DNA of 64,000 nt from Calditrichales bacterium MX18-03 (GTDB taxonomy: Bacteria; Bacillota; Clostridia; Lutisporales; Lutisporaceae): positions 806,001 to 870,000 of the forward strand of contig JAJGRE010000001.1 of NCBI GenBank assembly GCA_021083345.1, given 5' to 3'. The position numbers and the translations under genes are program-made. The notes beneath the pieces are model-generated. The model did not search any database. It saw only the letters and a list, made by a program, of their open reading frames with translations, and was not told where the DNA came from. This document shows, in pieces, positions 17,206 through 50,087 of this stretch (within the stretch, counting starts at the first letter, position 1; each line of letters opens with the position of its first letter).

Positions 17206-17219
17206 ATTGTTCACATCCC

Positions 17220-19325: not shown

Positions 19326-19337
19326 AATGATCTCCAC

Positions 19338-20669: not shown

Positions 20670-20707
20670 GATTATCCCTCCAATCATATTTATCTCCGAA
20701 AATTAAA

Positions 20708-21181: not shown

Positions 21182-21216
21182 AAATATATCTCCTTCCATT
21201 TGTGCAGGCCAGGGCC

Positions 21217-21422: not shown

Positions 21423-21647
21423 TCATACCTCCATCACTTTCCGAAATGCCCGATAGACCTTCGGATCATACTTGTACCGCGCCTCCTCCTCCATCAAGGC
21501 CAAGGCCTGTACCTCGGCATATGCCTGCCGGTACGGCCGGTCGCTCGTCATGGCGTCGAAGCAATCGGCCACGGTAATGATCCTGGACGACAGCGGGATA
21601 CTCTCCCCCTTCCTGCCATAGTACCCGCTTCCATCGAAGTTCTCACC
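21423..21647 (-). pseudogene. C-terminal fragment of an HD-GYP domain protein
   Basis: The frame gives GENFDGSGYYGRKGESIPL, SSRIITVADCFDAMTSDRPYRQAY and then a stop. This is the C-terminal third of an HD-GYP cyclic-di-GMP phosphodiesterase domain. The HD metal residues and the GYP motif's upstream half are missing, so it cannot be active. It lies in a different frame from the CpaB-like gene and overlaps its last codons, which marks a recombination junction near 21647. Confidence 0.75.
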
Positions 21648-22291
21648 GACACCTCCAGCCTTCCGTTGGATTTCGCCCATGCAAGGAACTGGTCCTGCTC
21701 GGGCGTCACCTCAAAGGAGATCATCTTGGGCGCCGAAGCTCTCTCCCCATTGTCCAGCAGCTTACCGTTCTCATCGATAATAGCGGCAATCCGGATATTA
21801 TCCAGCCTGACGATGTTCAGATCCTCCACTTTATCTGCAGTCGGCGCAGCAGGGGCTGCCACTTCGTTCCTCACAAATAAAATGTCAACCCGCTGCCCGA
21901 CCAGGACCCACCACCCATTGGCCTGATCCGGCTTGAATTCCACCGAAAAAAGCCTGTTGTCCTTCTTCTCCATCTGTATCTGGTCCATCTCAAGGCTCAG
22001 TCCGGCACGGCTGGAAAGCACCATCTCGTTTGCCTCCAGGTCCGCCAGCGCCGTCTTTCCTATTAGCTCCGCCATGCTCCTCACCGATAGTGGATGGATC
22101 TCGCTGATATTGACGTTTTTGATTTGTAGCATATCCTCTGTAATCACCGTTTTGGCTGGTATCCCACCCCTTGTGAATACCACTCCGATTTCCGGTTCGT
22201 AATTTGAAAGTGATTTCACAAAAAGCACTTCGGCAACAAGCAGCACACCGATCAGCAGCATCATGGCAATTACAAGCTTTAGTCTTCTCAT
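21548..22291 (-). CDS. CpaB/RcpC-like SAF domain pilus assembly protein, altered C-terminus
   Basis: A protein of 247 residues. The ATG follows GGAGGGG. An N-terminal membrane anchor (RLKLVIAMMLLIGVLLVAEVLF) precedes an SAF domain (GIPAKTVITEDMLQIKNV, ALADLEANEMVLSSR) and an RcpC-like domain (VLVGQRVDILFV, FEVTPEQDQFLAWAKSNGRLEVSVR). CpaB-type proteins normally end about there. The last about 25 residues (GTMAGRGRVSRCRPG) are low in pattern and are encoded by HD-GYP DNA read in the wrong frame, so the natural end was replaced. The core domains are intact and the protein may still work. It is the last gene of the Tad part of the operon. Confidence 0.85.
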   Translation of the reverse strand: MRRLKLVIAMMLLIGVLLVAEVLFVKSLSNYEPEIGVVFTRGGIPAKTVITEDMLQIKNVNISEIHPLSVRSMAELIGKTALADLEANEMVLSSRAGLSLEMDQIQMEKKDNRLFSVEFKPDQANGWWVLVGQRVDILFVRNEVAAPAAPTADKVEDLNIVRLDNIRIAAIIDENGKLLDNGERASAPKMISFEVTPEQDQFLAWAKSNGRLEVSVRTSMEAGTMAGRGRVSRCRPGSLPWPIASTP

Positions 22292-22304
22292 AACCCCTCC
22301 ATAG

Positions 22305-22832
22305 TCAGTTATTAACCGGTATATCCGAGTCTACATGGACCTTCAGCTCTACAAAATCCTTCCCCACAGCCTGCAGGATCAGACCCCTATACAATGTAGG
22401 CCTGACCGGCACCGTGACAATAGAGTGGATCGACACCCTTTCCATGATGGTTCCGTTGGCACACGATACCGGGAATCCGCCAGCATATATGATAAGGGAC
22501 TCTATCTCCACAGGCCCTTCTGCTATGGAATTTTCCTTCGGGGTAAGATCGTCATTCAGTCTTAGGTTTTTTGCCAGCAGTTCCATATAGATAACATGGG
22601 CCTCTGCTTGCTCCGGTATGGTGACCGTTTTGCTGGTATCTGTGACTTTCATCGCGTAATAAGCGGAAACGTTGGTCATGTCAATGGCATCCTTTAGCAC
22701 CTGGCCTTTGGCAAGCATCACATACTTTTCCACCACTGCAGCAAATACAGGAAACAAAACAAATACCACAACGGCTGCAAACAGTACAATGTCCGTCACG
22801 ACACTTCCCTTTTTATTTGATACAAGCCTCAT
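22305..22832 (-). CDS. TadE-like pseudopilin
   Basis: A protein of 175 residues. The ATG at 22832 overlaps the upstream TGA by one base, with AAGG upstream. The N-terminus SNKKGSVVTDIVLFAAVVVF has a prepilin-type pattern of glycine, four residues and an acidic residue (G-SVVT-D), followed by a long hydrophobic helix. The rest is a beta-rich extracellular domain. It is a minor pilus subunit of the Tad apparatus by position and pattern. The usual +5 glutamate is replaced by aspartate, as in the adjacent pilin. Confidence 0.75.
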   Translation of the reverse strand: MRLVSNKKGSVVTDIVLFAAVVVFVLFPVFAAVVEKYVMLAKGQVLKDAIDMTNVSAYYAMKVTDTSKTVTIPEQAEAHVIYMELLAKNLRLNDDLTPKENSIAEGPVEIESLIIYAGGFPVSCANGTIMERVSIHSIVTVPVRPTLYRGLILQAVGKDFVELKVHVDSDIPVNN

Positions 22833-23203
22833 CAATTGACAACCTTCCTGGCAATGGTAGTCTTGTCATACCCCATTGCCACACTGGCATTCTGCCTTAT
22901 ATACAAGCCCACTACCCTGCTGTAGACATAATCCGCCTGCACATTCAGGTTAAGCGCTTCCCCGTATTTCACATTTTGCTGTGCTGAGATCACTACATTT
23001 ATAAACCCGTAGGACATGAGCCTTGCACGGAGAGCATTCTGCTCCGACATCGAAAGTCCACCCTCGTTCTCCATTTTCAGCTGGGCTTTCCGGCATTCGG
23101 CATTGAACTCGAATTTGGCTGACAAGGGTACGAAGTATTCAATCATAGACACCAGCATGACAATCAGTATGACCAAAGTAATTCCAAAGACGACAGCCCG
23201 CAT
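22832..23203 (-). CDS. Minor pilus protein with single N-terminal membrane helix
   Basis: A protein of 123 residues. GGAGGG lies just before the ATG. A hydrophobic helix (VVFGITLVILIVMLVSMIEYF) is followed by a soluble domain (MSEQNALRARLMSYGFINVVIS). No prepilin cleavage glycine is seen. Its position between the pilin and the TadE-like gene, with a one-base overlap to the latter, suggests a TadE/TadF-like minor component. No specific family was recognised. Confidence 0.7.
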   Translation of the reverse strand: MRAVVFGITLVILIVMLVSMIEYFVPLSAKFEFNAECRKAQLKMENEGGLSMSEQNALRARLMSYGFINVVISAQQNVKYGEALNLNVQADYVYSRVVGLYIRQNASVAMGYDKTTIARKVVN

Positions 23204-23218
23204 GGAACTCCCTCCTGC

Positions 23219-23461
23219 TTATGTGGTTGGGAAGATTTTGGTCGCAATCGTGTTTGTCCACCAGTTAGTCAATCCTGTCATCACAGTACCGGCAAAGGTC
23301 CGCAACTGGGGTATGACTACGAAAGCTGCAACAACAAGGGCTGCTGCAATTCCCAATATCTCATCTTTCCCTACAGCACCCCGTTGATTGGCTATCAGGC
23401 TCTTTACACGGACATAAACCTCCAAAGACTTCTGGTCCAGCTCTTTCATGATTTTTTTCAT
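23219..23461 (-). CDS. Flp-like major pilin (DUF6133-like)
   Basis: A protein of 80 residues. A charged leader (about residues 1-27) is followed by RGAVGKDEILGIAAALVVA, a prepilin-type cleavage site with glycine, four residues and aspartate, then a hydrophobic helix. Size and layout match Flp/Tad pilins. Short DUF6133 proteins in clostridial conjugative elements share the G-xxxx-D pattern. It lies directly downstream of tadC and upstream of the pseudopilin genes, as expected for the pilus fibre subunit. No prepilin peptidase gene is present in this window. Confidence 0.7.
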   Translation of the reverse strand: MKKIMKELDQKSLEVYVRVKSLIANQRGAVGKDEILGIAAALVVAAFVVIPQLRTFAGTVMTGLTNWWTNTIATKIFPTT

Positions 23462-23477
23462 TCATTGATCCCCTTTC

Positions 23478-24383
23478 TTAATTTATGAATATTTTGGTCA
23501 TTGCCTCCGATGCTTCCCGCATCATGGGTACGGCAATCATCACTATCACGATTGCCACGAAGAACACTACCGCCATGAAGCTTTTATTCTTGCAAGCATC
23601 GGTCTCGGCTTGGATTTGGTTGAAATACCTTGAAAACATAACTTGCTCCTGCTTCTCCAGGATGCTCTGGTTATCCCCGGAATCAATCCCTTGCTTTAGT
23701 GCGACACAGAGCGTATCCACCTCCTCAGTCTCAAAATTCGACTTCAGTTCTTTCAGTGCAAGGTCTATATTGTTAGTCCTGCCATATACTGCAGCAAACC
23801 GGATGAGCCCATCCCGCAGCTCTACATCGTCCACCACCTCGTATACCGTCCTGATGGCATTGGAGATGCCCACACCTGAAGAGATCTGATTATACAGGTA
23901 CTTGTAGATCTTGTAGGAAGCAAAGCGGAATTTTGAGGCAATCCTGTTCTTTTTCCTTCGGACGGTAAAACTCACGATGAATGAAGTATATATTGCCAGA
24001 GTGGTTGCCTTCCAATACTCGGGATAAGTGATCGTAAGTGTTAAAATTAAGATGACAGCAGGTACGATGTACTTCAGCAACAGATAGACTGCTGCTGCGT
24101 ATTCTCCCTTGTATCCTGCCTTCTTCAGCAGAGCCTTCGTATCTGTGTAAAAGCCGGAATTGGCTTTTGCGCTTTCCAACTGCTTGACCGACTGCTTCAG
24201 CGACTCAATGTAATTGCGGTATGCGCTCTTCTTCTCCCCCCTTCCGGCCTTTGCTTCCCGGATCCCCTTGTCAAAGATCCCCGCTACCTGCGTTTCCAGC
24301 AGCTTCAGGAGGATCCCGTTCAGGAAAAGCAGCACCAAGGAAAAATACTTGTATTCCAATGCGAATTGTACAACCTCCTGCAC
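23478..24383 (-). CDS. TadC-like pilus inner-membrane platform protein
   Basis: A protein of 301 residues. The GTG at 24383 is chosen because GGAGG lies 7 nt upstream; the open frame extends further but would overlap tadB deeply. It has membrane helices at the N-terminus (YFSLVLLFLNGILL), in the middle (LLKYIVPAVILILTLTI) and at the end (FMAVVFFVAIVIVMIAVPMM). The cytoplasmic part contains the T2SS F-type helix bundle (ISSGVGISNAIRTVYEVVDD, ALKQGIDSGDNQSILEKQEQ). TadB and TadC together form the platform on which CpaF acts. Confidence 0.85.
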   Translation of the reverse strand: MQEVVQFALEYKYFSLVLLFLNGILLKLLETQVAGIFDKGIREAKAGRGEKKSAYRNYIESLKQSVKQLESAKANSGFYTDTKALLKKAGYKGEYAAAVYLLLKYIVPAVILILTLTITYPEYWKATTLAIYTSFIVSFTVRRKKNRIASKFRFASYKIYKYLYNQISSGVGISNAIRTVYEVVDDVELRDGLIRFAAVYGRTNNIDLALKELKSNFETEEVDTLCVALKQGIDSGDNQSILEKQEQVMFSRYFNQIQAETDACKNKSFMAVVFFVAIVIVMIAVPMMREASEAMTKIFIN

Positions 24384-24394
24384 CCCATCCCCTC

Positions 24395-25375
24395 CTAGTG
24401 CTTGAAATCCGTTATCTTGGTGAATATATAAAAACCCGCTGCATAAAGCCCGGCAAAAAGTGTCAGCAGCCATTTGCCCTGAGTTGTGTCAAAGTAGTAC
24501 GCATATACTGCCGGTGATCTGAAGAACACGGCAGCAATGGCAACAACGCCCAGCATAGCGAGCACGATCGTCATCCTGTCCTGATAGGTCGATATCTTAC
24601 GCCGGTTGTATTCGCTTTCGATCTGGTAGAACTGCGCTTCCATACATCCTAAGAGCTTCAGGATGTCGCCCCTGTGCTTGACGCACTGCTTGATGTTCAG
24701 GACAAAGTCCTTGAACTGCTCATTGTCCACCTTGAGCTGCAGAATGTCCAGTGCTTTCACCGGATCCATCCCGCGTCTGACCTGGATGACTAGGTCCCTG
24801 GTGTAGGACCGCAGGGGCTCCCCGATCCCTGAGTCCACGGATTTTTCGAAGCCGTAGAAAATATCCTCCTTTACCGCACACCAGCGCAGCAGCACCGATA
24901 CATAGTAGGCCAGCTTCCGCCTCACCATTTCCGAGTTGTGCTTTGCCATCAAGTCCAGCAGCATGAAAGGCAACGTGGAAAGGATCAGGCACAAAACGGC
25001 AGAAGACGGGATGAACCGGACCATCCGGTACACCGGCCCGAAGCATCCCGCGAAGATGAAAGCCGAGGACAGCATCACCATATATATGTTCATGAAGGGC
25101 AGGTAGCGCCTGATGTTGGATTTGTCTACTAGGTGGAGCTCCATCCTTTCAGGCCAACTCATATCGATAGATACCGTCCGGGTATGCTTCTTTGCTTCCC
25201 GGTGCAACCGCCTCTCATTGTACTTGTCGCTGATATGGCCGATGCCGCTGCGGTAGGTGTCCTCCACCAGCGTCCTGACCCTGCCGGCATCCACGCCGCA
25301 GACCACCAGCCAGGCCATGTAGCAGCTCAGCAAGGCGATCAGTATGGCATTCCCAAGGATCATATATTCCATCAT
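24395..25375 (-). CDS. TadB-like pilus inner-membrane platform protein
   Basis: A protein of 326 residues. The ATG overlaps the CpaF stop codon by four bases (ATGA), so translation is coupled. It has an N-terminal helix (ILGNAILIALLSCYMAWLVV), a second helix near residue 110, and the T2SS F-type bundle (VQVRRGMDPVKALDILQLKV, IKQCVKHRGDILKLLGCMEAQF), with two closing helices (TIVLAMLGVVAIAAVFF, WLLTLFAGLYAAGFYIF). It is the partner of TadC. Confidence 0.82.
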   Translation of the reverse strand: MMEYMILGNAILIALLSCYMAWLVVCGVDAGRVRTLVEDTYRSGIGHISDKYNERRLHREAKKHTRTVSIDMSWPERMELHLVDKSNIRRYLPFMNIYMVMLSSAFIFAGCFGPVYRMVRFIPSSAVLCLILSTLPFMLLDLMAKHNSEMVRRKLAYYVSVLLRWCAVKEDIFYGFEKSVDSGIGEPLRSYTRDLVIQVRRGMDPVKALDILQLKVDNEQFKDFVLNIKQCVKHRGDILKLLGCMEAQFYQIESEYNRRKISTYQDRMTIVLAMLGVVAIAAVFFRSPAVYAYYFDTTQGKWLLTLFAGLYAAGFYIFTKITDFKH

Positions 25376-26661
25376 ACAGTCAGCCCCCTTCTCCGGAGCT
25401 TTTCTGACAGCTTTTGGCCCAGATCGCCATACTTCCTGAACTTACCGGTCAGCAGTCCATCCTTGTCCTCATGGTCAATATCGAAACGGTACAGGTAATT
25501 GTATCGAAAGGTATCCGTCACCGGATCGTAGCCCTCCACTTCAGCAATGTCGGTAACCTTGAAGCCTTTCATGTGGAAAATGATATCCACACTTTTGGCC
25601 ATCATCTCCTTTATGGTCCTCTCGCTCTCTGTGATGCCAGCACCCATGGACAGTGTCAGCATCCTGGGGAAGACATCCTCCACCCCCCAGGTATGCAAGG
25701 TGGCGCCGATCCGATGCCCGGTAAAGCCCGCCTTCACCGCCTCCCAGCACTCATCCCCGACGACCTCCCCAATGCAGTAGGTATCAAGCAGCATCGTCAA
25801 GCCGTCCTGCACTAGATTCCGCAGCGTGACAGGCCGTCCGCCTTCGCTGGCCTTCTTGATCTTCTGTATGATGCAGTTGGGCTTGTCCGGGTACAGCTCA
25901 CTGTCCGATTCCGTCACCAGCACCCGCTCCAGCTTTGGCATGTTGTTGATGAAAGACCTGAACATGGTCGTCTTGCCGGAGCCCCCTTTCCCACAAAACA
26001 CCGGGGATGCATCCGACTGCGCCAGCCTATATACCAGATCCGCCATCTCCTCCGTCAGCATACCAAGCCCTACCAGGTCATTCAGTGTGTAGCTCTCCTG
26101 CCGGTGCTTCCGGATGCTGAGCGCCGGACCTGATATGTTCCTGGGCCTGATAGAGGCGTTGATCCTCAGCCTCCTTTTTTCATCCGACACCCGGCAGTGG
26201 GTATCGTTTTCATTCAGGCTTCCGCCGTTCCGGATGATGATCAGCTTGCAGTAGGTTTCAAACATCTTTTCGCTGCCGAAGCTGATACCGATTTCCTGCT
26301 TCCGGCCGTTCACCTTGATGGTCCCATCGTTGAACCTCGTAAAATCAATATCAGAAATATGTTCATCAGCCAAAAACGCTTCCAATATCCCATAGCCGAA
26401 CATATAGGCAAATACCGCTTCGATCAGCTTCTCCCTGTCCAGCCCCACCCCCAACCTTTGCCTGTCGATTTTCTGGATAATGGCTTTCTGCAGCACCTTC
26501 TGCTCGATATGCCCGTTATCCGCCTCCGCCACCAGGAAAGGTGAATCCTTCAGCACATCAAAGGTGATGTCATCTACCAGCATGCTCATATCCAGGGCGC
26601 TTTTGTCCCTGCTTTCCACCACCTCTTCAATGGGTGTATGATAGGATTTAATTGCCGGCAT
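25372..26661 (-). CDS. CpaF/TadA family secretion ATPase
   Basis: A protein of 429 residues. The ATG at 26661 has GGAGG 11 nt upstream and overlaps the cpaE-like gene by 14 nt. The N-terminal domain (about residues 90-190) is followed by Walker A GKGGSGKTT (about residue 205), the Asp box (VLVTESDSELYP), Walker B (YCIGEVVGDE) and the His box (GATLHTWG). This family powers Tad pili and is related to VirB11 of type IV secretion. Tcp conjugation systems of Firmicutes usually lack a VirB11, so this enzyme could serve the pilus, the conjugation channel or both. Confidence 0.93.
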   Translation of the reverse strand: MPAIKSYHTPIEEVVESRDKSALDMSMLVDDITFDVLKDSPFLVAEADNGHIEQKVLQKAIIQKIDRQRLGVGLDREKLIEAVFAYMFGYGILEAFLADEHISDIDFTRFNDGTIKVNGRKQEIGISFGSEKMFETYCKLIIIRNGGSLNENDTHCRVSDEKRRLRINASIRPRNISGPALSIRKHRQESYTLNDLVGLGMLTEEMADLVYRLAQSDASPVFCGKGGSGKTTMFRSFINNMPKLERVLVTESDSELYPDKPNCIIQKIKKASEGGRPVTLRNLVQDGLTMLLDTYCIGEVVGDECWEAVKAGFTGHRIGATLHTWGVEDVFPRMLTLSMGAGITESERTIKEMMAKSVDIIFHMKGFKVTDIAEVEGYDPVTDTFRYNYLYRFDIDHEDKDGLLTGKFRKYGDLGQKLSEKLRRRGLTV

Positions 26662-27970
26662 GAGTCCTTGCACCTCCTTTCAGCTTTTTCAGCCGCCTGC
26701 CGGCACGCCTGAAGCCTCTGCCCAAGGCTGCCAAGAAATCTCGCAGCCTGTCCCGCAAGGTGCGGGCTGCAACGATATCCAGTGCTGCCAGAATCTCCAT
26801 ATAGTCATTCTTCGTACTCCGGTCCATCCTTGCCGCATACACCGCTTTCAGATTCCGGTATCTCCGCCTCGTCATGCTGACCCTTACACGACCCAGGTAT
26901 TGGTTCTCCGTCGCTTCTCGGATGATCCTGTCATCCAGGTCTGACCCTGCTTCATGCTCATATGCTATGAATTTGCTTTTCTCCAGTGGCAGCTGCTGCT
27001 TGTCCCGCAGGAATAGCAGATACCGGTTGAATTCCCGCAGCTTGCCGTAATCAGCTCTGACGGGTATGAGGTTGCAGTCCGACTTCTGCAGGCCTATAAA
27101 GGCGAATTCGTCATAAATGGATCTGTTGACCAGCAGGATGGTGATGTCGAAGCTCTGATATGCCTTCTCGATCAGCTTCTTCAGGCTGCTGCTGCTGAAA
27201 TACTCGTAGTTGTCCAGGCTGTAGTTGCCGGTCAATATATATAAATTCTTCACTCCCTTCTTCCTGACGCATGCCTCCAGCATCAGGCCGGGCGTGAAGA
27301 TATCCTTTTCCAGTGCGTCCATGACAATGTTGAACCCGGAGTCGGTATAAATCCCCTGTGTCTTGATGTTCTCCGGGTATTTGCGTATATTGAGGTGCAA
27401 ATCTGCCTGCGGGGCCAGCAGGTCCATGTCCACCAGCAGGACGCTGTAGCCTGTCTGCTTGGCCGCCACATAAGCCAGTTCGCAACCGAACTCAGCATTG
27501 TCCCAGACTGTCAGGATTTTCTTCTTGAAGCCTACATGGACCACTTTCTCAATGATCCGCTCAGGCTGTGCTTCGATATCCTCCGATTTGAGCAGATTGA
27601 AGTCAAATGCCTCCGGATAATGGGCCATCTCATATATCAGCTTTTCTTCACTGAGGTTGCTGATCCTCAGGAAAGAATGGACGCCTTCATTCACCAGGGT
27701 CGTTACCAGCTTCTTCTCCTCATATCCCTCGAAGCCCTCCACCAGCATGATGACCTTGATACCCTGACCGACAGCGCATTTCGCCGCCTCAAGCAGCCTG
27801 TCTCCCTTCCCGTCCAGCAGTCTGTTGATGATTAGGTAATCCACCCTGGCAAACTCCATCAAGCCTATCAGGGTGCCAAGATCATCCTCGCTGTCCATCA
27901 CAGTCAGACCTTCAATGCCGCTTATCCTTTTTTCCAATGCTTTATTGCCCACTGCCAAAAAGACCTTCAT
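26648..27970 (-). CDS. CpaE/MinD-like protein with degenerate P-loop
   Basis: A protein of 440 residues. A receiver-like N-terminal domain (about residues 1-115) resembles the atypical receivers of CpaE proteins. The MinD/ParA-like part begins KKILTVWDNAEFGCELAYVA, where a GKGGVGKT P-loop is expected; the lysines and threonine are missing, while the following strand LLVDMDLLAPQADLHLNI is preserved. The C-terminal about 60 residues are strongly basic (RDRLRDFLAALGRGFRRAGR). CpaE localises Tad pilus assembly. Loss of the P-loop suggests a scaffold rather than an ATPase. The start overlaps the peptidase gene by four bases. Confidence 0.8.
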   Translation of the reverse strand: MKVFLAVGNKALEKRISGIEGLTVMDSEDDLGTLIGLMEFARVDYLIINRLLDGKGDRLLEAAKCAVGQGIKVIMLVEGFEGYEEKKLVTTLVNEGVHSFLRISNLSEEKLIYEMAHYPEAFDFNLLKSEDIEAQPERIIEKVVHVGFKKKILTVWDNAEFGCELAYVAAKQTGYSVLLVDMDLLAPQADLHLNIRKYPENIKTQGIYTDSGFNIVMDALEKDIFTPGLMLEACVRKKGVKNLYILTGNYSLDNYEYFSSSSLKKLIEKAYQSFDITILLVNRSIYDEFAFIGLQKSDCNLIPVRADYGKLREFNRYLLFLRDKQQLPLEKSKFIAYEHEAGSDLDDRIIREATENQYLGRVRVSMTRRRYRNLKAVYAARMDRSTKNDYMEILAALDIVAARTLRDRLRDFLAALGRGFRRAGRRLKKLKGGARTHAGN

Positions 27971-28878
27971 TCCTCTTCCTCCTCTAAAACAATGCGGTTT
28001 GGCTCCATCCAGACAGTGATGGGATAGGGGTTTATCCAGAGATATTCCTCCGGCGACTCCTCAAGCTCAATTCCGATCTGCAAGTGCAGGTGGTCAACGA
28101 ACTGCCCGCTGGTGCCCGGAGGCCCATACCCTGTATTCCCCACATACCCCACCAGCGTTCCGACCTCTATATAGTCGCCCTGCTTTATGTCAGCAGCATA
28201 TCCATCCATATGAGCGTAGTACCAATAGGTACCGTTGGCATCCGTGATCCCGATCCGCCATCCCCCAAGCTCATTCCAGCCCATATTGGTCACTTCCCCA
28301 TCCGTCATACTGACAATGGGTGTGCCCTTGCGGGCTATCAGGTCATTGCCGTAATGCCTCCGTTCACCCTCATAGTAACGGTCAGCTCCAAAATCGTCAT
28401 AATGCGTATAGCTCCAGTGCCGTGTCCTGGTCCGCTTTCGTAGTTCCCCGTCCCTACCATTTTCCTCCCAGTAGGTTGTCACTGTCTTTTCCGGGATGGG
28501 GGCGACCTTTACCTCGCTGTAGCACTTCATGAAAATATCATATAGCTCCTGCTCTTCTTCACCCATAGCCCTTCCCATTCCAGCCATGGCTACTTTCAAT
28601 AAAGCCCTATCATAAATCCCATTTTCGGATAGCACCGCCGACAAAGCCAAGAGCTTAATGAAATCCAGGCCTTGTGTATACACTTCCCGCTGCGCCATCA
28701 GCAAATAATCACCCGGAATCTCCAGGCATCGTGAAATCATGATGTCATCACTTGAGACCGCCGTAGCATTTCGTGCCGCCAGGATGACCGTGCAGGATAC
28801 CATCAGGAGGGGTACTGCCATGAAAGAAAGCAGCTTCAATGCCAGCTTTATCCTTTTGATCTTTTTCAGCATCTTCAT
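27967..28878 (-). CDS. M23 family cell-wall endopeptidase, membrane-anchored
   Basis: A protein of 303 residues. An N-terminal membrane segment (LALKLLSFMAVPLLMVSCTVIL) is followed by a helical region and an M23 (lysostaphin-like) domain at about residues 170-285, with metal ligands visible in HYGNDL and HLHLQIG and the YYAHMDG segment between. It cleaves peptide cross-links in peptidoglycan. Its place between the VirB6-like gene and the Tad genes fits a VirB1/CwlT-like role of opening the wall for the conjugation channel or pilus. Start and stop overlap both neighbours by four bases. Confidence 0.88.
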   Translation of the reverse strand: MKMLKKIKRIKLALKLLSFMAVPLLMVSCTVILAARNATAVSSDDIMISRCLEIPGDYLLMAQREVYTQGLDFIKLLALSAVLSENGIYDRALLKVAMAGMGRAMGEEEQELYDIFMKCYSEVKVAPIPEKTVTTYWEENGRDGELRKRTRTRHWSYTHYDDFGADRYYEGERRHYGNDLIARKGTPIVSMTDGEVTNMGWNELGGWRIGITDANGTYWYYAHMDGYAADIKQGDYIEVGTLVGYVGNTGYGPPGTSGQFVDHLHLQIGIELEESPEEYLWINPYPITVWMEPNRIVLEEEEE

Positions 28879-31058: not shown

Positions 31059-31063
31059 CACCC

Positions 31064-33547
31064 CTATGCTGCATCCCCTGTCGGAGTGGTATTGAATGCT
31101 TTTTCTATCAAGTGGCTATATACCGCATCGAATTTCAGCTTGCCAACCCTGCCGTCCAGGTCCTGGAACAGGCATTCACCGTTCCGCAGATTCTTGACTT
31201 CGTTCATGTTCTCATCCGTGGCCTCCAGGTCCAGGAATTCCAGGATTCTGGCTATCTCGGCATTATCTGTGGCCTTGAAACAGAACTTATATGAAATGTT
31301 TGTCTTGATCCCCTCGCTGCGCATGTCCTTGGTGCTGTGCCCGATGAAGAAGCAGCCGGCATTGAGTGCCCTGCCTTCCCGGACCAGCGCATTCATCGTC
31401 TGCTGCCCCTGTGTCGTGCTTGAAAGCGCCCATGCCTCATCAAAGAGGACCACCTTGAAAACCTGCCTGCTCATATGCAGGAACTTCCGTGCGAAAGAAG
31501 CAATCGGCAGCATTAGTACCGTCGAAAGCACCTCCTCCTGGGTGTAATCATCTTTGGGCTTCTCCGGATCCGGCATACTCAGGTTCTGTATCTGGAGAAC
31601 GTTGACCCGCTTATCAAAAGAAAGGGACTCTTCCCCGCCTTCACCGAAAAGCAGCCCCGCCATTGCCATGTTCCTAAGCAGCTTGATTTTCCGCCCGATC
31701 CGGTTTGCCGCCCCTTTCAGGCTGTCTTCCTCTGGAAAATCCAGAAGCCGTCCGGCAAGCTTGATCATGCTGGGCTTATCCTGCTTTTTCATCCATTCAA
31801 TGGCTTCCAGGATTGCCGTATACTCGTCGTCCTTCGGATTCAGCTTGAACAGCTCGGATAGGATAGACACCGCCAAGTACCCGGCCTCATCCATACTACC
31901 CTTGTAGATCAGGAAGGGATCCAGCTTGCCTTTGTCTTTTTCCTCCGCCGAAAGGGAAATGATGTTCATCTGCCCCGCAAATTCCGGCAGGTCTTTCTCC
32001 CAATTGGACCTTTCTCCCTTGGGGTCAAGCACAAGTCCATATCCACCGTACAGCACGTTCAAATAAAACAACAGGTTGGCGTTGAAGGATTTACCGCCGC
32101 CCAGCGTACCGAGGAATGCCGCCGAGGCAGATCGGTTCAGCAAGCAAGCGCGTTTGATATCCAGGTACACATTTTTCTGCAGGAGTCCGGTCGTACCGAT
32201 ATACGGGCCTGCATTATCTCCTATGATTCGTGTCGCCCCAAACATGGCACCGGCCAGGGTCCTTGGCGGCAAGGGCATGATATAGTCAGTGACATAGCGG
32301 CCCGTACCGGGAAAAAACTCCATGAAGAGCTTCAGCTGGTCGCTCATGGGCCTCTCCATGATAAAATTCTTGTCCTCATAGATTTCCTTGATAGTGCTCA
32401 CATTCTCTTCCAGCTCTTCCCGGCTGTCGGAGAAAAAGCAGACCGTGATGCTGGTGCGCGTGATTGGCGACCGGCTTGCCCGCAGCTCTGCCTCCAGGTC
32501 CCTGGCGTTCTCCTTGGATTCCAGCAGCTCATCCGGTATGTCCTCGTTGTTTTCCTCCGTATGCTGGATCTGGTCGTCTATCTCCTTTTTCTTCCGCCCG
32601 ACATTCCGGATGCTCTCCTTGTGGATCACCGTCTCAATGTTGATGCACACCTCGGTTTGTACTTCATAATCTTGCAGTTCCAGCAGCCATTCATTTCCCG
32701 GGAAAATGATCCCGTCAGGTATGTGGGATATGGCCAGGAAAGCCTGATAGGACACCCGACCATCGCCGTGGAAAACCTTCAGCAGCCGCTCATCCTCGAC
32801 ATCCACCAGTCCCTCCGTCAGAGTCAGGATCTCCCGCTGCTCTGAGCGCAATGCCGCCTCCCCATCCTTGATGACCTTGAGGGTAAAGGGCGTCCAGCGG
32901 CTTTCTTCATCCCCTCTCAGCTGCACCTCACCCAGACCTCTGAAAAAAGGCCGCCGGATCAGCCACTGCGTGTCGTATTCGTCGCATGCGGTCAGCGAGA
33001 CCCTTTTGCTCTGTCTACGAAGGTATTCATTGGCCAGGTTCCTGAAGGATTCGATCTCACGCTTGAAAATGTCCTTGTACTCTACTCCAAAAGCCTCTTT
33101 CAGCACCTGAACCGGCTCTTTATACAAGTATGTAAAAGCATCAACAGCGTCCCGTACCAAGTTCTCCGGAAGCTTTAATTTTGTGACAACATAGGTCTTG
33201 TAGTCATTCATGTTATTGCGGCCTTTCAGCTTATTGCGCAAATATGCTGCCGTCCCTTCCGCATGAGCTTTGGCAGACTGACACATCGGGTTCCTGGCGT
33301 CCAAGCCGTTCATGATCCTTTTATAGTGCTTGTCGATATCCTGGCTCACAGGCACCATCAGCACCTTGGCTTCGCCCCCGATGTTTGAAATGAAACGGGC
33401 TAGGGCGTTGAGGATCGCAATTTTCTTTTCATTGGATTTGAAATCATAGTTAAAACCGTCAATTTCATACAGTGCCCAGCATTCCTTCCTGCCGGTATTG
33501 AATATCAGGTTTTCTTCAAAATACTTTATTGGGAACATATAGTTCAT
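31064..33547 (-). CDS. VirB4-family conjugation ATPase
   Basis: A protein of 827 residues. The ATG at 33547 follows GGAGGG by 9 nt; the frame is open upstream but lies within the tcpE-like gene. Walker A is GTLGGGKSF (about residue 500) and Walker B is KVVLFDEAWAL; a RecA-like fold continues with STKDMRSEGIKTNISYKFCFK. VirB4 is the universal ATPase of type IV secretion and energises assembly and DNA transfer at the membrane. It overlaps the tcpE-like gene by four bases. The length and the N-terminal domain fit the Gram-positive (Tn916 ORF16) branch. Confidence 0.95.
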   Translation of the reverse strand: MNYMFPIKYFEENLIFNTGRKECWALYEIDGFNYDFKSNEKKIAILNALARFISNIGGEAKVLMVPVSQDIDKHYKRIMNGLDARNPMCQSAKAHAEGTAAYLRNKLKGRNNMNDYKTYVVTKLKLPENLVRDAVDAFTYLYKEPVQVLKEAFGVEYKDIFKREIESFRNLANEYLRRQSKRVSLTACDEYDTQWLIRRPFFRGLGEVQLRGDEESRWTPFTLKVIKDGEAALRSEQREILTLTEGLVDVEDERLLKVFHGDGRVSYQAFLAISHIPDGIIFPGNEWLLELQDYEVQTEVCINIETVIHKESIRNVGRKKKEIDDQIQHTEENNEDIPDELLESKENARDLEAELRASRSPITRTSITVCFFSDSREELEENVSTIKEIYEDKNFIMERPMSDQLKLFMEFFPGTGRYVTDYIMPLPPRTLAGAMFGATRIIGDNAGPYIGTTGLLQKNVYLDIKRACLLNRSASAAFLGTLGGGKSFNANLLFYLNVLYGGYGLVLDPKGERSNWEKDLPEFAGQMNIISLSAEEKDKGKLDPFLIYKGSMDEAGYLAVSILSELFKLNPKDDEYTAILEAIEWMKKQDKPSMIKLAGRLLDFPEEDSLKGAANRIGRKIKLLRNMAMAGLLFGEGGEESLSFDKRVNVLQIQNLSMPDPEKPKDDYTQEEVLSTVLMLPIASFARKFLHMSRQVFKVVLFDEAWALSSTTQGQQTMNALVREGRALNAGCFFIGHSTKDMRSEGIKTNISYKFCFKATDNAEIARILEFLDLEATDENMNEVKNLRNGECLFQDLDGRVGKLKFDAVYSHLIEKAFNTTPTGDAA

Positions 33548-34008
33548 GGCGCAACCCTCCTGCCCTTTGCTGCCTTGGCTTTCCTCATGGCCAGATCCGT
33601 CCTGTTTACAATCCGCCTTCCGCGATAAACGATGCAAGTGGTAAACCGCAGCCTGCCCGGCTGCTGTACCGGCTTGAACCGGGCATAACGCTTCGGCCCA
33701 AGCTTGTACACGATATAGTCATAGAAGAATTTCAGGGGCATCTTGCCGTCCAGCTTCTGCTTGGTAAAAAACTTCATCAGCCCGAAAGGGACGATGACAA
33801 ATTTGATAAAAAAGTGGAGGTTTTTATAGAAAGGCACCACTTTTATCAGCATGATGCTGATGACCATGCTGACGGCGAAATACAGCAGCTCATTGGGCGT
33901 AACCGGCATCAGCAGCTTCAGGCCCTCCACCGAATAAATCTTTCTGTCGATTTTCCACACGTTCCCAAAGGTCCTCAGGATCACATAGTCCTTATCATCA
34001 AAAGACAT
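33544..34008 (-). CDS. TcpE-family conjugation membrane protein
   Basis: A protein of 154 residues. It shows two membrane helices (ELLYFAVSMVISIMLIKVV, LHFFIKFVIVPFGLMKFF) and the conserved following segment TKQKLDGKMPLKFFYDYIVY, KLGPKRYARFKPV. That segment is characteristic of TcpE/ORF17-type proteins, which are needed for conjugation in Firmicutes. It is directly upstream of virB4, the standard order. A PrgI-family assignment is the main alternative. Confidence 0.85.
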   Translation of the reverse strand: MSFDDKDYVILRTFGNVWKIDRKIYSVEGLKLLMPVTPNELLYFAVSMVISIMLIKVVPFYKNLHFFIKFVIVPFGLMKFFTKQKLDGKMPLKFFYDYIVYKLGPKRYARFKPVQQPGRLRFTTCIVYRGRRIVNRTDLAMRKAKAAKGRRVAP

Positions 34009-34026
34009 ACCGCCGCCGCCTTCCTG

Positions 34027-34335
34027 CTAACCGTTGAAAATGATGTTCCAAAGATAGTCACCGACGGTTTTGAGCTTGTCCGGGCCATAGACGATGGTCA
34101 TGACGAACATGCCCAGGATGGCAAAGCCGATGAACTGCACGAACTGCCTTTTTACCAGGTACTTGATGGCAAAGAAGGCGACAGTGCCCAGTACAGCCAG
34201 CTTCACGCCGTCCATCAGCCAGTCATAGAGGTTCTTTGCATAAGTATTGGGGGAAGCCGCGTAGGCGTTGCAGGTCATGGAGACCAAGAGCACCACCGTC
34301 AGAACGGCCACGAGCATTTTCCTATTTTTCACCAT
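34027..34335 (-). CDS. TcpD-like small membrane protein
   Basis: A protein of 102 residues. The ATG at 34335 is 9 nt after AGGAGG. A signal peptide (MLVAVLTVVLLVSMTCNAYA) is followed by a short extracellular part and two hydrophobic helices (VKLAVLGTVAFFAIKYLV, FVQFIGFAILGMFVMTIVY). Its size, topology and place between the TcpC and TcpE genes match the TcpD-like component of Tcp conjugation systems. The start overlaps the tcpC-like stop by 14 nt. Confidence 0.7.
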   Translation of the reverse strand: MVKNRKMLVAVLTVVLLVSMTCNAYAASPNTYAKNLYDWLMDGVKLAVLGTVAFFAIKYLVKRQFVQFIGFAILGMFVMTIVYGPDKLKTVGDYLWNIIFNG

Positions 34336-35377
34336 TGTCTTCATCCTCCTTATATTGCAGGTTCCCCATCCGGGTATCAAACCCGGCGATGTAGAACCTT
34401 GAGTCCTTTTTCATAATGTTGATGTGGTAGCCTTGGCGGATCTCTTGCAGCGTGTTGGGATCGGCAACAAGCACTTCTGCCAAAGCGATATACCCCCCTG
34501 CGGAGCTGTCTTCATACACCAGCACTTCATTTATGCCTTTGAACTTGAACTTCCCGCCCATGCCTTTTACTCCTGCACCCGGGTCACTCATATAGTATGT
34601 CAGCTCCGAATCGCTGCCCTCGTAGTATGTTCTGAAGAAGTTTTTCAGCATTTCATTGATTGCCGCAGCTTCCTCTTCACCTGCTGCCGTCCCGCTGTGG
34701 CGTGTATACTGCACCTCCGCCTTCTCCAGCCTAGGCACGAATACTGGCAGGTCCTCGACCACATAGCGCCTGCCGTCAGTATATACCGGTATCTTGATGT
34801 AAATGTTATCCTCTTTGATGTCTACTTGTGTAACCGCAGCAAGCACTGCCTCTGGCACCTCCGGTTCTCCAGCCACTGCCTGCGATATGGTGTAGACCAC
34901 CTTGGCCTGCACTAATATATTGACTTGGCTGTCGCTGTGCCATTGAACCTCCACCGTCTGTGTATCAGTCACCCGGGAAGCCCTGTCGTTATTGGATAAG
35001 TCGATACTGGCGCTCACCACCCGTGAAGGTGCATAGGCTGCAAGCCGTCTCTTGTACTCCTCCCCGTCACCGCCTTTGTATGTCAGGTACTCCCTGGCAA
35101 AGCCCTCCGCGAAGGCTGATGCCTCCGACGCTACTCTGAACTCACGATCCAGTGCGTCTTTGAACTCTGTGACCTGACTGTTGATGGCCTTCACCGGGTC
35201 GGGCCTGAGGATCGACCCGATTCCCCGCAGCAGCAGAAATGCCACCATGATCCACAGGATTACCCGACCAACCGTTTGAGGTAGCGCCGTTTTCAGCTTC
35301 TCCGCCTTGCTATCAAACTGGAAGGCAGCATCCTGCCTTCCAGTTGCCTTTTTCGCTTTTTTCACAAACAGTTCCAT
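34322..35377 (-). CDS. TcpC-family conjugation protein
   Basis: A protein of 351 residues. The ATG at 35377 overlaps the TcpA stop by one base; the ribosome site is only 2 nt upstream, so a slightly later start is possible. One N-terminal membrane helix (GRVILWIMVAFLLLRGIGSIL) anchors a large extracellular part with the two NTF2-like domains typical of TcpC/ORF13 (AFAEGFAREYLTYKGGDG, INEMLKNFFRTYYEGSDSEL). TcpC stabilises the conjugation complex at the outer face of the membrane. Confidence 0.87.
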   Translation of the reverse strand: MELFVKKAKKATGRQDAAFQFDSKAEKLKTALPQTVGRVILWIMVAFLLLRGIGSILRPDPVKAINSQVTEFKDALDREFRVASEASAFAEGFAREYLTYKGGDGEEYKRRLAAYAPSRVVSASIDLSNNDRASRVTDTQTVEVQWHSDSQVNILVQAKVVYTISQAVAGEPEVPEAVLAAVTQVDIKEDNIYIKIPVYTDGRRYVVEDLPVFVPRLEKAEVQYTRHSGTAAGEEEAAAINEMLKNFFRTYYEGSDSELTYYMSDPGAGVKGMGGKFKFKGINEVLVYEDSSAGGYIALAEVLVADPNTLQEIRQGYHINIMKKDSRFYIAGFDTRMGNLQYKEDEDNGEK

Positions 35378-37080
35378 CACCTCCTGATAGTTCCCCTCTT
35401 CATGATTGCTTTACGGTATTTATCCCACTCCTCTGAACTGAGGCTGCAAAGGTCTATTTCTTCATCGGCTTCCAAAGCTTCGGCATAACCAATATCCACC
35501 TGCGCATCTTCTTTTCGCGTATATTCCTTATCTGGCACATCTTCTTCATCCAGATCTTCGTCCGGATCTTCCAATTCACCTGTCTCTTTATCAGGCTCTT
35601 CCGGACTACACAGCTCATTCTCCGGCTCCTCATGGCCCGGTATGGTTTCGGTCTCTTCCACATCGACTGTCAGCATGCTGCCCTTGGTGAATTCCCCTTC
35701 CTTAAGGCTCCGGTCATCAAACTTGTATGCCTGGAACTCCACAATATCAGCCCCAACAGCATACATGAACCGCCCCCGGATATCCCCCAGCTCGGCAGCC
35801 TTGGTACTTCCCAGCACCATCTCCGACACTTGCGGGTCCACCATGCGTCCAGAAATCCGGATCGGCAGGTTGTTCTTGATCTGCCCCGGCAGCACCCGGG
35901 CGTCCGGCCTTTGGGTGGCTAGGATCAGGTTGATGCCGGTCGCCCTCGCAAGTCTCGCCAATGTAGAAAGGTAGCCTTCGATTTCCTTGTAAACCTGCTT
36001 TTCTTCCTTGCTCAAGCCCGTGGTATCCAGCATCTCCGCCACTTCATCGGCAATCAGGACGATCCGGCAAAGGATCTCCTTTCCCTTGGGCTTACGCCGG
36101 TCGCTGCACCGGTTGTATTCGTCCAGATTTTTGACATCCAGCTCGCGGAAAAGGATCAGCCTCTCCTTGTTCTCGTTGACAAGCTCCCTCAGGATCTGGG
36201 TGACCCGATCCCTTTCCGTCACAACCTCACCGAAAGCCTCATACTTCTTGGAGAACTCCACTCCGCCTTTGAAGTCGATCATATACGGCTTCGCGCCCTT
36301 CTTGACGCACTGCCACAGGATGCACCGCTCTATGACTGATTTACCCGATCCGGTCACTCCGGCGATCAGGGCATGGGGCACCTTGTTCAGGTCAAAAACC
36401 ACATCCTCCAGCATCGCGACTCCCAGCGTCAACTCAAAGTCCTTCTCCCTGATGTATTCATCCGACCATTCTATATAGTCCTTCAAGCCCTGGTCAGTAG
36501 GTATGGTGTGTACCCGGACCACCTGCTTGGAGGTCTTGGCATGCTCGATCTTGACGATGTTGCAGTCAAATACGGTCTCCAGCTCAATGCAGCGGTCCTT
36601 CCACGCCTTGACCGGAATATTGGTAAAGAAGGACAGGATCACTTGCTTTCCCTTCCGCTCCTCCCGGATCAGCTTGGGGTAGTCCAGGACCTCGACCACT
36701 TTCCCATCCATCCCGGCTCTTTTCCTTTTTCCTGCATGGAACCCCATCATCTCAAACTTCTGTTCATAGGATTTCATGTGCCGGATCCTGTCCTCACCCA
36801 GCCAATAAATGAATATGACCGGGATCAGCGGCGCAGCATAAAGGATATGTCTCAGCCGGCCATGCTCCTCTGGTATCATGGAGCCCAACGGACTGCGGAA
36901 TATGATAACCAGGGCAGCGAGAACTGTGAGCACGGCAAAAGCAATGTACCGGGACTTCTTTTTCGGAAGCTCCCCGAAGCCGTAGCCCATGGACCGGCAG
37001 AACTCCCAAATCCCCTTAGCAGCGCCCATGATATACTGCCCCGCCAGCTCCAGCTCCCTGTCCCCACTGCTATGGCTCAA
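35377..37080 (-). CDS. TcpA: FtsK/SpoIIIE-type conjugation coupling ATPase
   Basis: A protein of 567 residues. The start is TTG 37080-37078, with AGGAGG 8 nt upstream, and overlaps the integrase gene by 11 nt. Two membrane helices (YIAFAVLTVLAALVIIF, ILYAAPLIPVIFIYWLG) precede an FtsK-like motor domain with Walker A AGVTGSGKS (about residue 235) and Walker B VLIADEVAEM. An ATQRPDARVLPG segment follows. The last about 100 residues are very acidic. Coupling proteins deliver DNA to the channel. The lack of a relaxase in the window means its DNA substrate is not identified here. Confidence 0.93.
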   Translation of the reverse strand: MSHSSGDRELELAGQYIMGAAKGIWEFCRSMGYGFGELPKKKSRYIAFAVLTVLAALVIIFRSPLGSMIPEEHGRLRHILYAAPLIPVIFIYWLGEDRIRHMKSYEQKFEMMGFHAGKRKRAGMDGKVVEVLDYPKLIREERKGKQVILSFFTNIPVKAWKDRCIELETVFDCNIVKIEHAKTSKQVVRVHTIPTDQGLKDYIEWSDEYIREKDFELTLGVAMLEDVVFDLNKVPHALIAGVTGSGKSVIERCILWQCVKKGAKPYMIDFKGGVEFSKKYEAFGEVVTERDRVTQILRELVNENKERLILFRELDVKNLDEYNRCSDRRKPKGKEILCRIVLIADEVAEMLDTTGLSKEEKQVYKEIEGYLSTLARLARATGINLILATQRPDARVLPGQIKNNLPIRISGRMVDPQVSEMVLGSTKAAELGDIRGRFMYAVGADIVEFQAYKFDDRSLKEGEFTKGSMLTVDVEETETIPGHEEPENELCSPEEPDKETGELEDPDEDLDEEDVPDKEYTRKEDAQVDIGYAEALEADEEIDLCSLSSEEWDKYRKAIMKRGTIRR

Positions 37081-37903
37081 CCGCCACTCCTCCTTTCTTT
37101 TTTCTCAGGTAAATATCCGTCGTCGTTTTCAGGTTATGCCCCAGCGCATCCCGGACAACCGCCTTGGCCTCTGCCCTGGTCATGCCTTGGGCCATACTCT
37201 CCCGCAGCAGCCTCTTTGAGAAGCTGCGCCGCAAGTCGTGCATCTGGAACCCCAGCTTTGCGGCATTGCTTTTCATATAACTGGCTGAGTAAAATAGGAA
37301 TTGATCCTCTATCTCCGCTGTATAACGCTTCAGCTTTTCCGTCAGGTACTCATCCTTCAGGCATGCCACGCTCCTTTGCTTGCCCCCCTTGCCGTCACTG
37401 ACATTCACCCGGATGCCTTCCTCCGTGAATTCCAGATCCTCCTTGGCAAGGGCAGCCAGCTCGGAGACGCGAAGCCCGGACCGCAGACCCAGCCGGAGGG
37501 CCAGCTTCATTTTCTCATTCCTCAGCGCATTGACCTTCCGTTCAATCATCCCTTCAGCCATGCCTGAGCCTCCCCCCTCATACCGCTTCCCCCTGCTCCT
37601 CCTTGCTTCCTGGAAAAGCGCTGTGGCAGTATCGCCGTATAAAATGGCATTCTTCATCCCCAGAACGTTGATCTCAAACCGCTGCAGCGCCGACACGTAC
37701 TTGATGAACTGCCGGTAGTCCCCCGTCAGCCCCCTGTCCCGGAAGAAACCGATGACGGCCTCCTTCCCTACTCCATCCCAACTGCCGATACCATTAACGA
37801 CGAGGTACTCCCCGAATACCCGCATGCAGCTCAGATAAGTGTCTGCACTGGTAGTCCGAATACGACGATCATGAACGAATTTCTCCAAGACTTCAGCATA
37901 CAA
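37070..37903 (-). CDS. Tyrosine recombinase / integrase
   Basis: A protein of 277 residues. A SAM-like N-terminal DNA-binding domain (about residues 1-90) precedes the catalytic domain. The active-site set is visible: R in SGLRVSELAAL, K in the GGKQRS hairpin, H and R in HDLRRSF, H in LGHNLKTTTDIYL with the nucleophilic tyrosine. Such enzymes integrate or excise mobile elements. Its place is unusual: it lies at the head of the transfer operon and overlaps tcpA by 11 nt, so integrase and coupling protein are made together. No att site was identified. Confidence 0.92.
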   Translation of the reverse strand: MYAEVLEKFVHDRRIRTTSADTYLSCMRVFGEYLVVNGIGSWDGVGKEAVIGFFRDRGLTGDYRQFIKYVSALQRFEINVLGMKNAILYGDTATALFQEARRSRGKRYEGGGSGMAEGMIERKVNALRNEKMKLALRLGLRSGLRVSELAALAKEDLEFTEEGIRVNVSDGKGGKQRSVACLKDEYLTEKLKRYTAEIEDQFLFYSASYMKSNAAKLGFQMHDLRRSFSKRLLRESMAQGMTRAEAKAVVRDALGHNLKTTTDIYLRKKKGGVAVEP

Positions 37904-37998
37904 TCTGAGACCTTTTTGAATGTCCAGCTGTTGATCACCATCCTTTAAGCGTTATATCAGTTACCATATAATCCTATTCCGCTTACATATTCTGTATT

Positions 37999-38094
37999 GT
38001 GTAACCGAATCCGGCATGAACCTTGGAAAATCTATGTAAAAACCAAAAACCAACCGGGTAACTTCGGGGTATAGTGTTTTTTACCCGGTTACAC
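37999..38094 (-). promoter_or_regulatory. Terminator with possible competing hairpin (attenuator-like)
   Basis: AACCGGGTAA (38052-38061) pairs exactly with TTACCCGGTT (38081-38090). Reading the - strand, the stem is followed by GGTTTTTGGTTTTT, a good intrinsic terminator between the small paralogue and the integrase. CGGTTACAC (38086-38094) also matches GTGTAACCG (37999-38007) exactly and overlaps the first stem, so the two pairings exclude each other. The terminator is well supported; regulation by switching is inferred. Confidence 0.6.
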
Positions 38095-38101
38095 AAGCAA
38101 G

Positions 38102-38455
38102 TTACTCCTTTTTGAGGAGCATTTCAGAATTGATATCCGCCTTGACAGCCTCATAAAGGAGCCTGTTTACTGATATGACCCTGGTTGGTTTTTGGTTGAT
38201 TTTTTGTACATTGGTGTTCCTGCCGCCGCCTTTTTCGGTGACTAGGAAGCCCAGCCTGCGAAACCTGTTCAAAGCTTCCACGGCATCGGCGTCAGGATCC
38301 ACGCGGTTGATCACAAACTTGAAGTTGCCTGGCTTGATATTGATCAGCCGACCATCGCAGGTCTCAGTACATACCTTTTTGCCTGTGGACTGCATCAGCA
38401 GGATCATGTCCATTGCGTCCACGAACAGCCCGGCATAATAGACCAGCTTCAGCAT
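38102..38455 (-). CDS. Small protein of unknown function, paralogue 2
   Basis: A protein of 117 residues with AAAGGGG upstream of the ATG. It is not recognised. The centre and C-terminus (INIKPGNFKFVINRV, ALNRFRRLGFLVTEKGG, RVISVNRLLYEAV) align with the gene 80 bp upstream. The pattern of helix, RF-x-LGF and beta strand could be a small winged-helix fold. It lies directly before the integrase/tcpA operon, behind a terminator, so a role in regulating transfer is possible but not shown. Confidence 0.75.
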   Translation of the reverse strand: MLKLVYYAGLFVDAMDMILLMQSTGKKVCTETCDGRLINIKPGNFKFVINRVDPDADAVEALNRFRRLGFLVTEKGGGRNTNVQKINQKPTRVISVNRLLYEAVKADINSEMLLKKE

Positions 38456-49367: not shown

Positions 49368-49369
49368 GT

Positions 49370-50074: not shown

Positions 50075-50087
50075 AAGCAACCTCCAC

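Follow-up and report, generated by a model that had tools for sequence, protein, structure and literature searches.

Gene content of the relaxosome, channel and pilus block

The stretch of DNA described here (the window, 64,000 nucleotides) comprises positions 806001-870000 of a 1.72 Mb contig, C7, in a 4.69 Mb clostridial genome (G000). On its minus strand, from 37903 to 21548, the genes of a Tcp-type conjugative type IV secretion system (T4SS) and those of a Tad pilus form one operon-like string: a tcpM-like gene, tcpA, tcpC, tcpD, tcpE, virB4, virB6, an M23 hydrolase gene, cpaE, cpaF, tadB, tadC, flp, two pseudopilin genes and cpaB. Two tcpK paralogues lie directly upstream of tcpM, and with them the block of relaxosome, channel and pilus genes covers 38868-21548; all of these genes are present with open reading frames. 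Functionally the block reaches from tcpK (38868) down to genes for SLH, PKD and giant surface proteins (12934-20687). The genes that an earlier sequence-only reading had named between 37903 and 21548 were all confirmed on the minus strand at the same coordinates, by profile matches or, for three small pilus genes, as colinear homologues.

Judged by its sequence, the DNA-processing module appears to be complete in the window apart from a proven transfer origin (oriT). The two TcpK-like proteins are predicted to be oriT-binding winged-helix proteins. Copy 1 (38536-38868) matched the NCBIfam TcpK model NF052334 at 1.2e-9, which is under the curated cut-off. Copy 2 (38102-38455) is 27% identical to the TcpK of a relative, G253, and its AlphaFold model (pLDDT 81) gave seven Foldseek matches in the PDB at E < 0.001, all of them to the pCW3 TcpK structures 5VFX/5VFY (probability 1.00, 1.3e-4). 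The oriT of pCW3 is situated between tcpK and tcpM (PMC6137059). The corresponding intergenic region of the window (37904-38101) contains the nested inverted repeats TTGTGTAACCG/CGGTTACACAA and AACCGGGTAA/TTACCCGGTT, but no TcpK-box pair was recognised in it, and it is therefore regarded as a candidate oriT only. The sequence-only reading had proposed looking for a relaxase just outside the window. A candidate is encoded within the string itself (37070-37903), just downstream of the two tcpK genes: a TcpM-like protein of the MOBM type, belonging to the tyrosine-recombinase superfamily (Phage_integrase 6.7e-14) and placed ahead of tcpA as in pCW3. The order tcpK-tcpM-tcpA was also found in G253 and in G778. 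The only PLSDB matches of the TcpM-like protein were three Enterocloster bolteae plasmids, among them pCbo51, which is typed MOBM. It might be thought that the gene at 37070 encodes the integrase of the element. This was rejected, since G778 has a separate integrase at the far attachment (att) end of its element while its tcpM homologue lies between tcpK and tcpA; the gene is accordingly read as a putative relaxase.

The channel genes follow in order: the coupling ATPase TcpA (35377-37080; FtsK_SpoIIIE 7.5e-19), the VirB8-like TcpC (34322-35380; PF12642, TpcC, 1.7e-29), a TcpD-like membrane protein with an uncertain start codon (34027-34380; NF040685 1.7e-7, under its cut-off), the VirB3-like TcpE (33544-34008; PF12648 1.2e-15), the VirB4/TcpF ATPase (31064-33637; AAA_10 8.5e-93), a VirB6/TcpH-like membrane protein of the CD3337/EF1877 family (28875-31061; NF046089 2.8e-52) and, as the final T4SS gene, the M23 peptidoglycan hydrolase (27967-28878; PF01551 4.3e-18). 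This ordered set of TcpA, TcpC, TcpD, TcpE, VirB4, VirB6 and hydrolase corresponds to the gene set of pCW3 (PMC6137059) and places the system in the pCW3 type (MPF_FA, MOBM). The TcpM relaxase and the TcpK accessory protein of that type are likewise recognisable by sequence family, position and predicted fold.

The Tad set begins with CpaE/TadZ (26648-27970), which combines a receiver-like N-terminal domain (27536-27970) with a ParA/MinD-like ATPase (AAA_31 0.001; fold). It continues with the pilus motor ATPase CpaF/TadA (25372-26673; T2SSE 1.9e-19), TadB (24395-25375; T2SSF 3.7e-4; 52% identical to its counterpart in G009) and TadC (23478-24473; T2SSF 1.1e-5), the true start of which is probably further downstream. 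The Flp pilin (23219-23461, prepilin motif G/AVGKDE) and the two TadE/F-like pseudopilins (22832-23203 and 22305-22835) gave no profile match; they were identified as colinear homologues of genes in other Tad loci, namely L004, L005 and the Vallitalea pronyensis plasmid pVpro. CpaB/RcpC (21548-22291; RcpC 9.8e-8, SAF 1.5e-6) completes the set, so that all typical elements of a Tad (type IVc) pilus are present: TadA/CpaF, TadB, TadC, TadZ/CpaE, Flp, pseudopilins and RcpC/CpaB. Compared with the C termini of its relatives, the final ~32 amino acids of CpaB run into the C-terminal remnant of an HD-GYP phosphohydrolase (21423-21680), which is 41% identical to an HD protein of pVpro (8.9e-7). As pVpro has a longer HD protein after cpaB, signalling may once have been part of the Tad set.

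At the boundary of the T4SS and the Tad set the M23 gene and cpaE overlap by 4 nt, and cpaE is preceded by a ribosome-binding-like sequence, GAGGAGGAAGAGGA. The sequence-only reading had described many overlaps of 1-14 nt in the string. The other annotated gaps from tcpM onward range from -94 to +18 nt; the largest of the annotated overlaps are probably mis-called start sites. Terminator-like matches in the region were at chance level (17, against 15.2 ± 4.1 in shuffled sequences), and the best minus-strand sites, at 20732 (past the block) and at 38502 (between the two tcpK genes), both lie outside the string. The sequence-only reading had likewise seen no terminator inside the string, and the T4SS and Tad genes may be transcribed as one unit. 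The block has a G+C content of ~52%, whereas the chromosome has 48-50% and the surrounding island (~754-870 kb of C7) mostly 36-46%.

Recurrence, module exchange and mobility

Of the 391 genomes searched in the class, just three gave a strong match to a VirB6 of this kind: the window's own, G009 from the same family, and G253. A phylum-wide profile search of 398 genomes found it in none apart from the window's own, and viral contigs scanned with VirB6 and CpaF gave no matches. G253 belongs, together with G778 and G777, to one genus of another family, and the system is present in 3 of the 11 genomes of that genus. VirB4 of the window is 60-64% identical to VirB4 of G009, G253, G778 and G777. 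When gene order was compared with these clostridial relatives, as had been proposed from the sequence, the joined form was found again, as M23-CpaE-Tad in G009 and, with another Tad set, in G253, G778 and G777. In G009, tcpC to virB6 lie on one contig and M23-CpaE-CpaF-TadB-TadC are contiguous on another; it shares CpaF (67%) and TadB with the window. G253, G778 and G777 have the order T4SS-M23-CpaE and share the T4SS, M23 and full-length CpaE (~30%) with the window, whereas their Tad set differs: its order is cpaE-cpaB-cpaE2-cpaF-tadB-tadC, and in a homology matrix its CpaF was undetectable against that of the window.

The reverse combination is found on pVpro. Here a Tad set of the window type, in the same order, directly follows the M23 gene of a PrgI/VirD4-type T4SS; identities to the window are 41% for CpaF, 31% for TadB, 28% for TadC, 35% for Flp, 29-30% for the pseudopilins and 25% for CpaB. 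The closest T4SS on a known plasmid, that of pCbo51 (VirB4 44%), is without M23 and Tad genes. When 'joined' is placed as a label on a tree of CpaF, it has to change three times, and well supported branches force at least two of these changes. Because the G253-type elements carry another Tad set on the same kind of channel and pVpro carries a window-type Tad set on a PrgI-type T4SS, the sequences indicate that channel and pilus parts have been exchanged while the junction between T4SS and Tad persisted. Tad sets were also seen on large plasmids of Aneurinibacillus (near PrgI and VirD4-type conjugation genes) and of Alkaliphilus (followed by SLH and giant proteins).

Exchange of this kind bears on the possibility that CpaF is the missing VirB11, engaging VirB4 or TcpA and powering the channel, with the pilus secondary. 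The premise of the sequence-only reading, that T4SSs of Gram-positive bacteria have no VirB11, agrees with a 2025 review stating that VirB11 homologues are universally absent from them (PMC12857230), and CpaF and VirB11 do belong to one ATPase superfamily. Yet the best family of the window's CpaF is TadA (TIGR03819, 4.1e-35) and not VirB11 (2.6e-23), and TadB, TadC, Flp, the pseudopilins and CpaB have all been kept beside it. Moreover, the window's CpaF can barely be aligned with that of the G253 lineage (E 0.017) although the VirB4s of the two are ~62% identical, which makes a conserved CpaF-VirB4 interface unlikely. Since the motor changes while the channel does not, we consider a VirB11-like role of CpaF improbable, and the suggestion that it might drive the channel has lost ground.

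Nor is the Tad set of this locus a plain chromosomal pilus locus. Stand-alone relatives do exist (L004/G271, L005, G386 and G174), but the joined form recurs despite them. It is kept in other genera and families and on mobile elements, and the union of a Tcp-type (MPF_FA) set with a complete Tad set in one operon-like string is therefore no stray chromosomal pilus locus. The Tad genes are also kept functional in the element: between G253 and G778, dN/dS was 0.043 for cpaF, 0.096 for tadB, 0.146 for tadC, 0.173 for cpaE and 0.093 for cpaB, which shows purifying selection. The corresponding values were 0.085-0.21 for the tcp, virB6 and M23 genes, and 0.43 for one small pilin-like gene.

The elements of G778 and G253 are integrative and conjugative elements (ICEs). 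In G778, whose chromosome is complete in a single contig, the element is 48.2 kb long and is bounded on both sides by TTTATTCCCACTCAAT, the 3' end of guaA; the G253 element, of 44.5 kb, is bounded in the same way by GTTTATTCCCACTCAAT. The direct repeats are thus 16-17 bp of the guaA 3' end. The ICE carries a tyrosine integrase at one end as well as ParA-/ParB-like and replication-initiator-like genes (roles read by eye from the sequence). An empty site is provided by the sister genomes G214, G045, G780 and G779, in which the left flank of the G778 element is contiguous with guaA. In G152, a genome without this VirB6, ~100 bp resembling the inner right end of the G778 ICE were found beside guaA (L108); they may belong to a different ICE that shares this att end, or to what is left of one.

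Two candidates for the ends of the window's own element were discarded. The guaA repeat is absent from its contig stretch, and the best direct repeats between the flanks of the island proved to come from a gene segment that is duplicated, at about 792-794 kb and 860-864 kb. A large serine recombinase gene at C7:758236 and a ParM-like actin gene at C7:872757 (ALP_N 2.4e-7) are candidates for outer parts of the element. The latter is grouped (C7:870883-874046) with a small gene that may be its partner and with a gene for a replication-initiator-like protein, which suggests that the right side of the island carries maintenance genes of the plasmid type.

The same observations bear on the idea that two unrelated loci adjoin by chance or by an error of assembly. 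Nothing speaks for it beyond the general possibility and the short contigs of G009. Against it stand the overlap of 4 nt where the two sets meet, the reappearance of the joined form in several genera, the att repeats and the empty sites, and for the complete chromosome of G778 an artefact is already refuted; we regard this explanation as very improbable for the window.

CpaE and the proposed role of the pilus

In CpaE of the window, residues 1-145 share 36-47% identity with the N domains that the joined CpaEs have in G009, G253, G778 and G777. No such domain was found in the stand-alone relatives L004 and L005; in L004 a protein kinase occupies its place. The C-terminal ATPase is 55% identical to that of L004/G271 and 26% identical to that of G253. 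The simplest reading of the sequences is that recombination within cpaE exchanged the Tad set. An N-domain profile gave strong matches (E < 1e-60) only in G000, G009 and G253 among the 391 genomes of the class, the next match being at 2.3e-8. These are the same three genomes that have the strong VirB6, a coincidence of about 1 in 10 million if both were distributed randomly and independently, though two of the genomes are related.

The N domain is predicted to fold as a (beta-alpha)5 receiver, with a pLDDT of ~80-87 for residues 1-80, and it matches receivers such as DesR (TM 0.7 on target); the C part, poorly modelled, matches ParA/MinD ATPases. The usual phospho-acceptor position appears from the alignment to be an invariant asparagine, N49. 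The receiver would then be atypical, like the one in Eubacterium rectale TadZ. A receiver protein of pVpro was considered as its equivalent, but the comparison was not significant (0.38) and the shared N domain is therefore claimed for the Tcp-Tad lineage alone. In a Caulobacter model CpaE contacts the base of CpaF (PMC13170226). The N domain remains with the T4SS even where the other Tad parts have been swapped; from this, from the receiver-like fold and from the contact with CpaF, we infer that it probably docks the pilus motor next to the channel.

Taken together, gene content and relatives make it rather probable that the locus is the transfer core of a family of conjugative elements, in which a pCW3-like T4SS (MPF_FA, MOBM) is assembled along with a Tad pilus and with surface adhesins, pilus and adhesins making the mating contacts, CpaE docking the motor at the channel. 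TcpK and TcpM would nick oriT, and TcpA and VirB4 would pump the DNA-relaxase complex through TcpC, TcpD, TcpE and VirB6, with M23 opening the wall. CpaF, TadB, TadC and CpaB would extend, and probably retract, the Flp pilus, which together with the SLH and PKD adhesins might find and hold recipients, a mating-pair function that monoderm systems usually lack. The receiver-like N domain of CpaE would dock the pilus motor beside the channel. A bolder form of this proposal is tentative: the Tad pilus may be a true, probably retractile mating pilus of monoderm conjugation, docked to the T4SS by the CpaE domain as a reusable adaptor which lets different Tad sets plug onto one channel.

Several observations weigh against these proposals. 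The block contains no prepilin peptidase gene (TadV/CpaA), so host enzymes must serve; the sequence-only reading had proposed looking for one just outside the window, and two A24 prepilin peptidases are encoded elsewhere in the genome, at C7:112628 and C13:226515, so that a peptidase for pilus assembly would be available to the cell. The HD-GYP gene is truncated and no att pair was found in the contig stretch around the window's element, which may mean that this copy is partly decayed. In G009 the T4SS and M23-Tad blocks are on separate contigs. Finally, Tad loci are common on plasmids generally (PMC6668835), and co-carriage alone is no proof of a role in mating.

Downstream of the Tad set and in the same orientation follow a HicB-like antitoxin gene with its own promoter-like site (20756-21199; PF15919 1.3e-16; 37% identical in G777) and genes for three surface proteins: an SLH-domain protein (19338-20687; SLH 6.6e-23), a PKD-domain protein (17220-19337; PKD_4 2e-6) and a giant protein with Y_Y_Y domains (12934-17214; PF07495 3.9e-6). 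The SLH and giant proteins have homologues in G777, G253, G778 and pVpro, and the PKD protein in G777, pVpro and G271; homologues of the PKD and giant proteins also follow the stand-alone Tad locus of G271. From this distribution the cassette belongs with the Tad set.

The most serious competitor is that pilus and adhesins are cargo, improving host adhesion or biofilm fitness and co-expressed in the transfer operon with no part in mating. Tad is the type IV filament system most frequent on plasmids (PMC6668835), the tad genes beside conjugation genes on Cutibacterium acnes plasmids have been discussed as colonisation factors (PMC5696575), and, as stated above, the adhesin cassette follows Tad even in the stand-alone locus of G271. 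Cargo, however, normally lies outside the transfer operon. In the window the final T4SS gene and cpaE overlap by 4 nt, the junction is seen again with other Tad sets and with other T4SSs, and the CpaE domain stays with the channel. We consider the cargo explanation doubtful, though deserving of attention. The Tad machine might also serve some purpose other than mating contact: it could take up DNA, sense surfaces or secrete the giant surface proteins. Some bacteria require Tad for transformation (cited in PMC5696575), and in every lineage the Tad genes are followed by genes for large surface proteins. As the N domain of CpaE goes with the T4SS and the block showed no competence genes, such a purpose seems to us, if anything, a little less probable still than a VirB11-like CpaF.

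Other genes of the window lie outside the transfer block. A low-G+C stretch beside it encodes a type II-A retron (58379-60227) composed of a reverse transcriptase (PADLOC RT_II-A 3e-78) and an NDT effector (2e-40). Type II restriction-modification-like genes (48591-54336; methyltransferase 4.1e-64, endonuclease 2.3e-12) are accompanied by an HNH/PtuB-like protein, and Lamassu-type LmuB (4.7e-202) and LmuA (1.5e-85 for its portion beyond the window) are split by the window edge (61905-63998 and C7:870001-870754). Restriction-modification-like genes, retron and Lamassu form a defence island adjoining the element. At the other end of the window (2600-7150) a 1516-amino-acid protein consists of a subtilase (2.3e-53) fused to a 14-copy RCC1 repeat domain.

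Comparison with known systems

At stake is how Gram-positive conjugation finds and holds its recipients, the standard view being that these systems have neither VirB11 nor pili. A clostridial ICE family with Tad genes in its transfer string makes the question directly testable, and the swapped modules point to the part that must match the channel, the CpaE N domain being a concrete candidate for the link between T4SS and pilus. The ICE family also suggests that the tad genes of Gram-positive plasmids, for which colonisation is the usual interpretation, may serve transfer.

The known system closest to the channel is the tcp locus of pCW3 from Clostridium perfringens (MPF_FA, MOBM), which has the same tcpK-tcpM-tcpA-C-D-E-virB4-virB6-hydrolase content in near-identical order and the same TcpK fold. 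It differs in that pCW3 has not been described with CpaE or Tad; in the window the hydrolase is of the M23 type, the string continues into the Tad set, and the oriT is a candidate only. The pilus side is most closely matched by pVpro (NZ_CP058650), where M23 lies beside a receiver/CpaE pair followed by CpaF, TadB, TadC, Flp, pseudopilins, CpaB, the HD protein, SLH and giant proteins in the same order. Its T4SS, unlike that of the window, is of the PrgI/VirD4-CD1115 type, and the plasmid, available as annotated sequence only, is typed non-mobilizable by MOB-suite; no literature report on it was found.

Pilus-bearing conjugation is not without precedent. The thin pilus of the IncI plasmids R64 and ColIb-P9 is a type IV pilus of a conjugative plasmid and is needed for mating in liquid and for recognition of the recipient. 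It differs in having a diderm host, a type IVb pilus, a different T4SS and a separate pil operon. The pil system of R64 is cited in PMC3244431. Nearer to the window are the linear plasmids p15.1.R1 and p09-9 of Cutibacterium acnes, which carry a tad locus preceded by genes for an FtsK-like protein, VirB4 and TcpC and have been called possibly conjugative (PMC5696575). Both systems place conjugation genes upstream of tad, in C. acnes on a putatively conjugative plasmid, and pilus-like appendages have been seen with the C. acnes Flp/Tad plasmids (PMC5696575). C. acnes belongs to another phylum; no operon joint, CpaE adaptor or exchange has been described there, and in its type II plasmids surface-protein genes are inserted upstream of tad, unlike in the window (PMC5696575). 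A search of the open-access literature found no paper describing ICEs of clostridia whose transfer operon includes a Tad set. While the C. acnes plasmids and the IncI thin pilus are precedents for conjugation with a pilus, the union of Tcp and Tad in clostridial ICEs is a new form of it.

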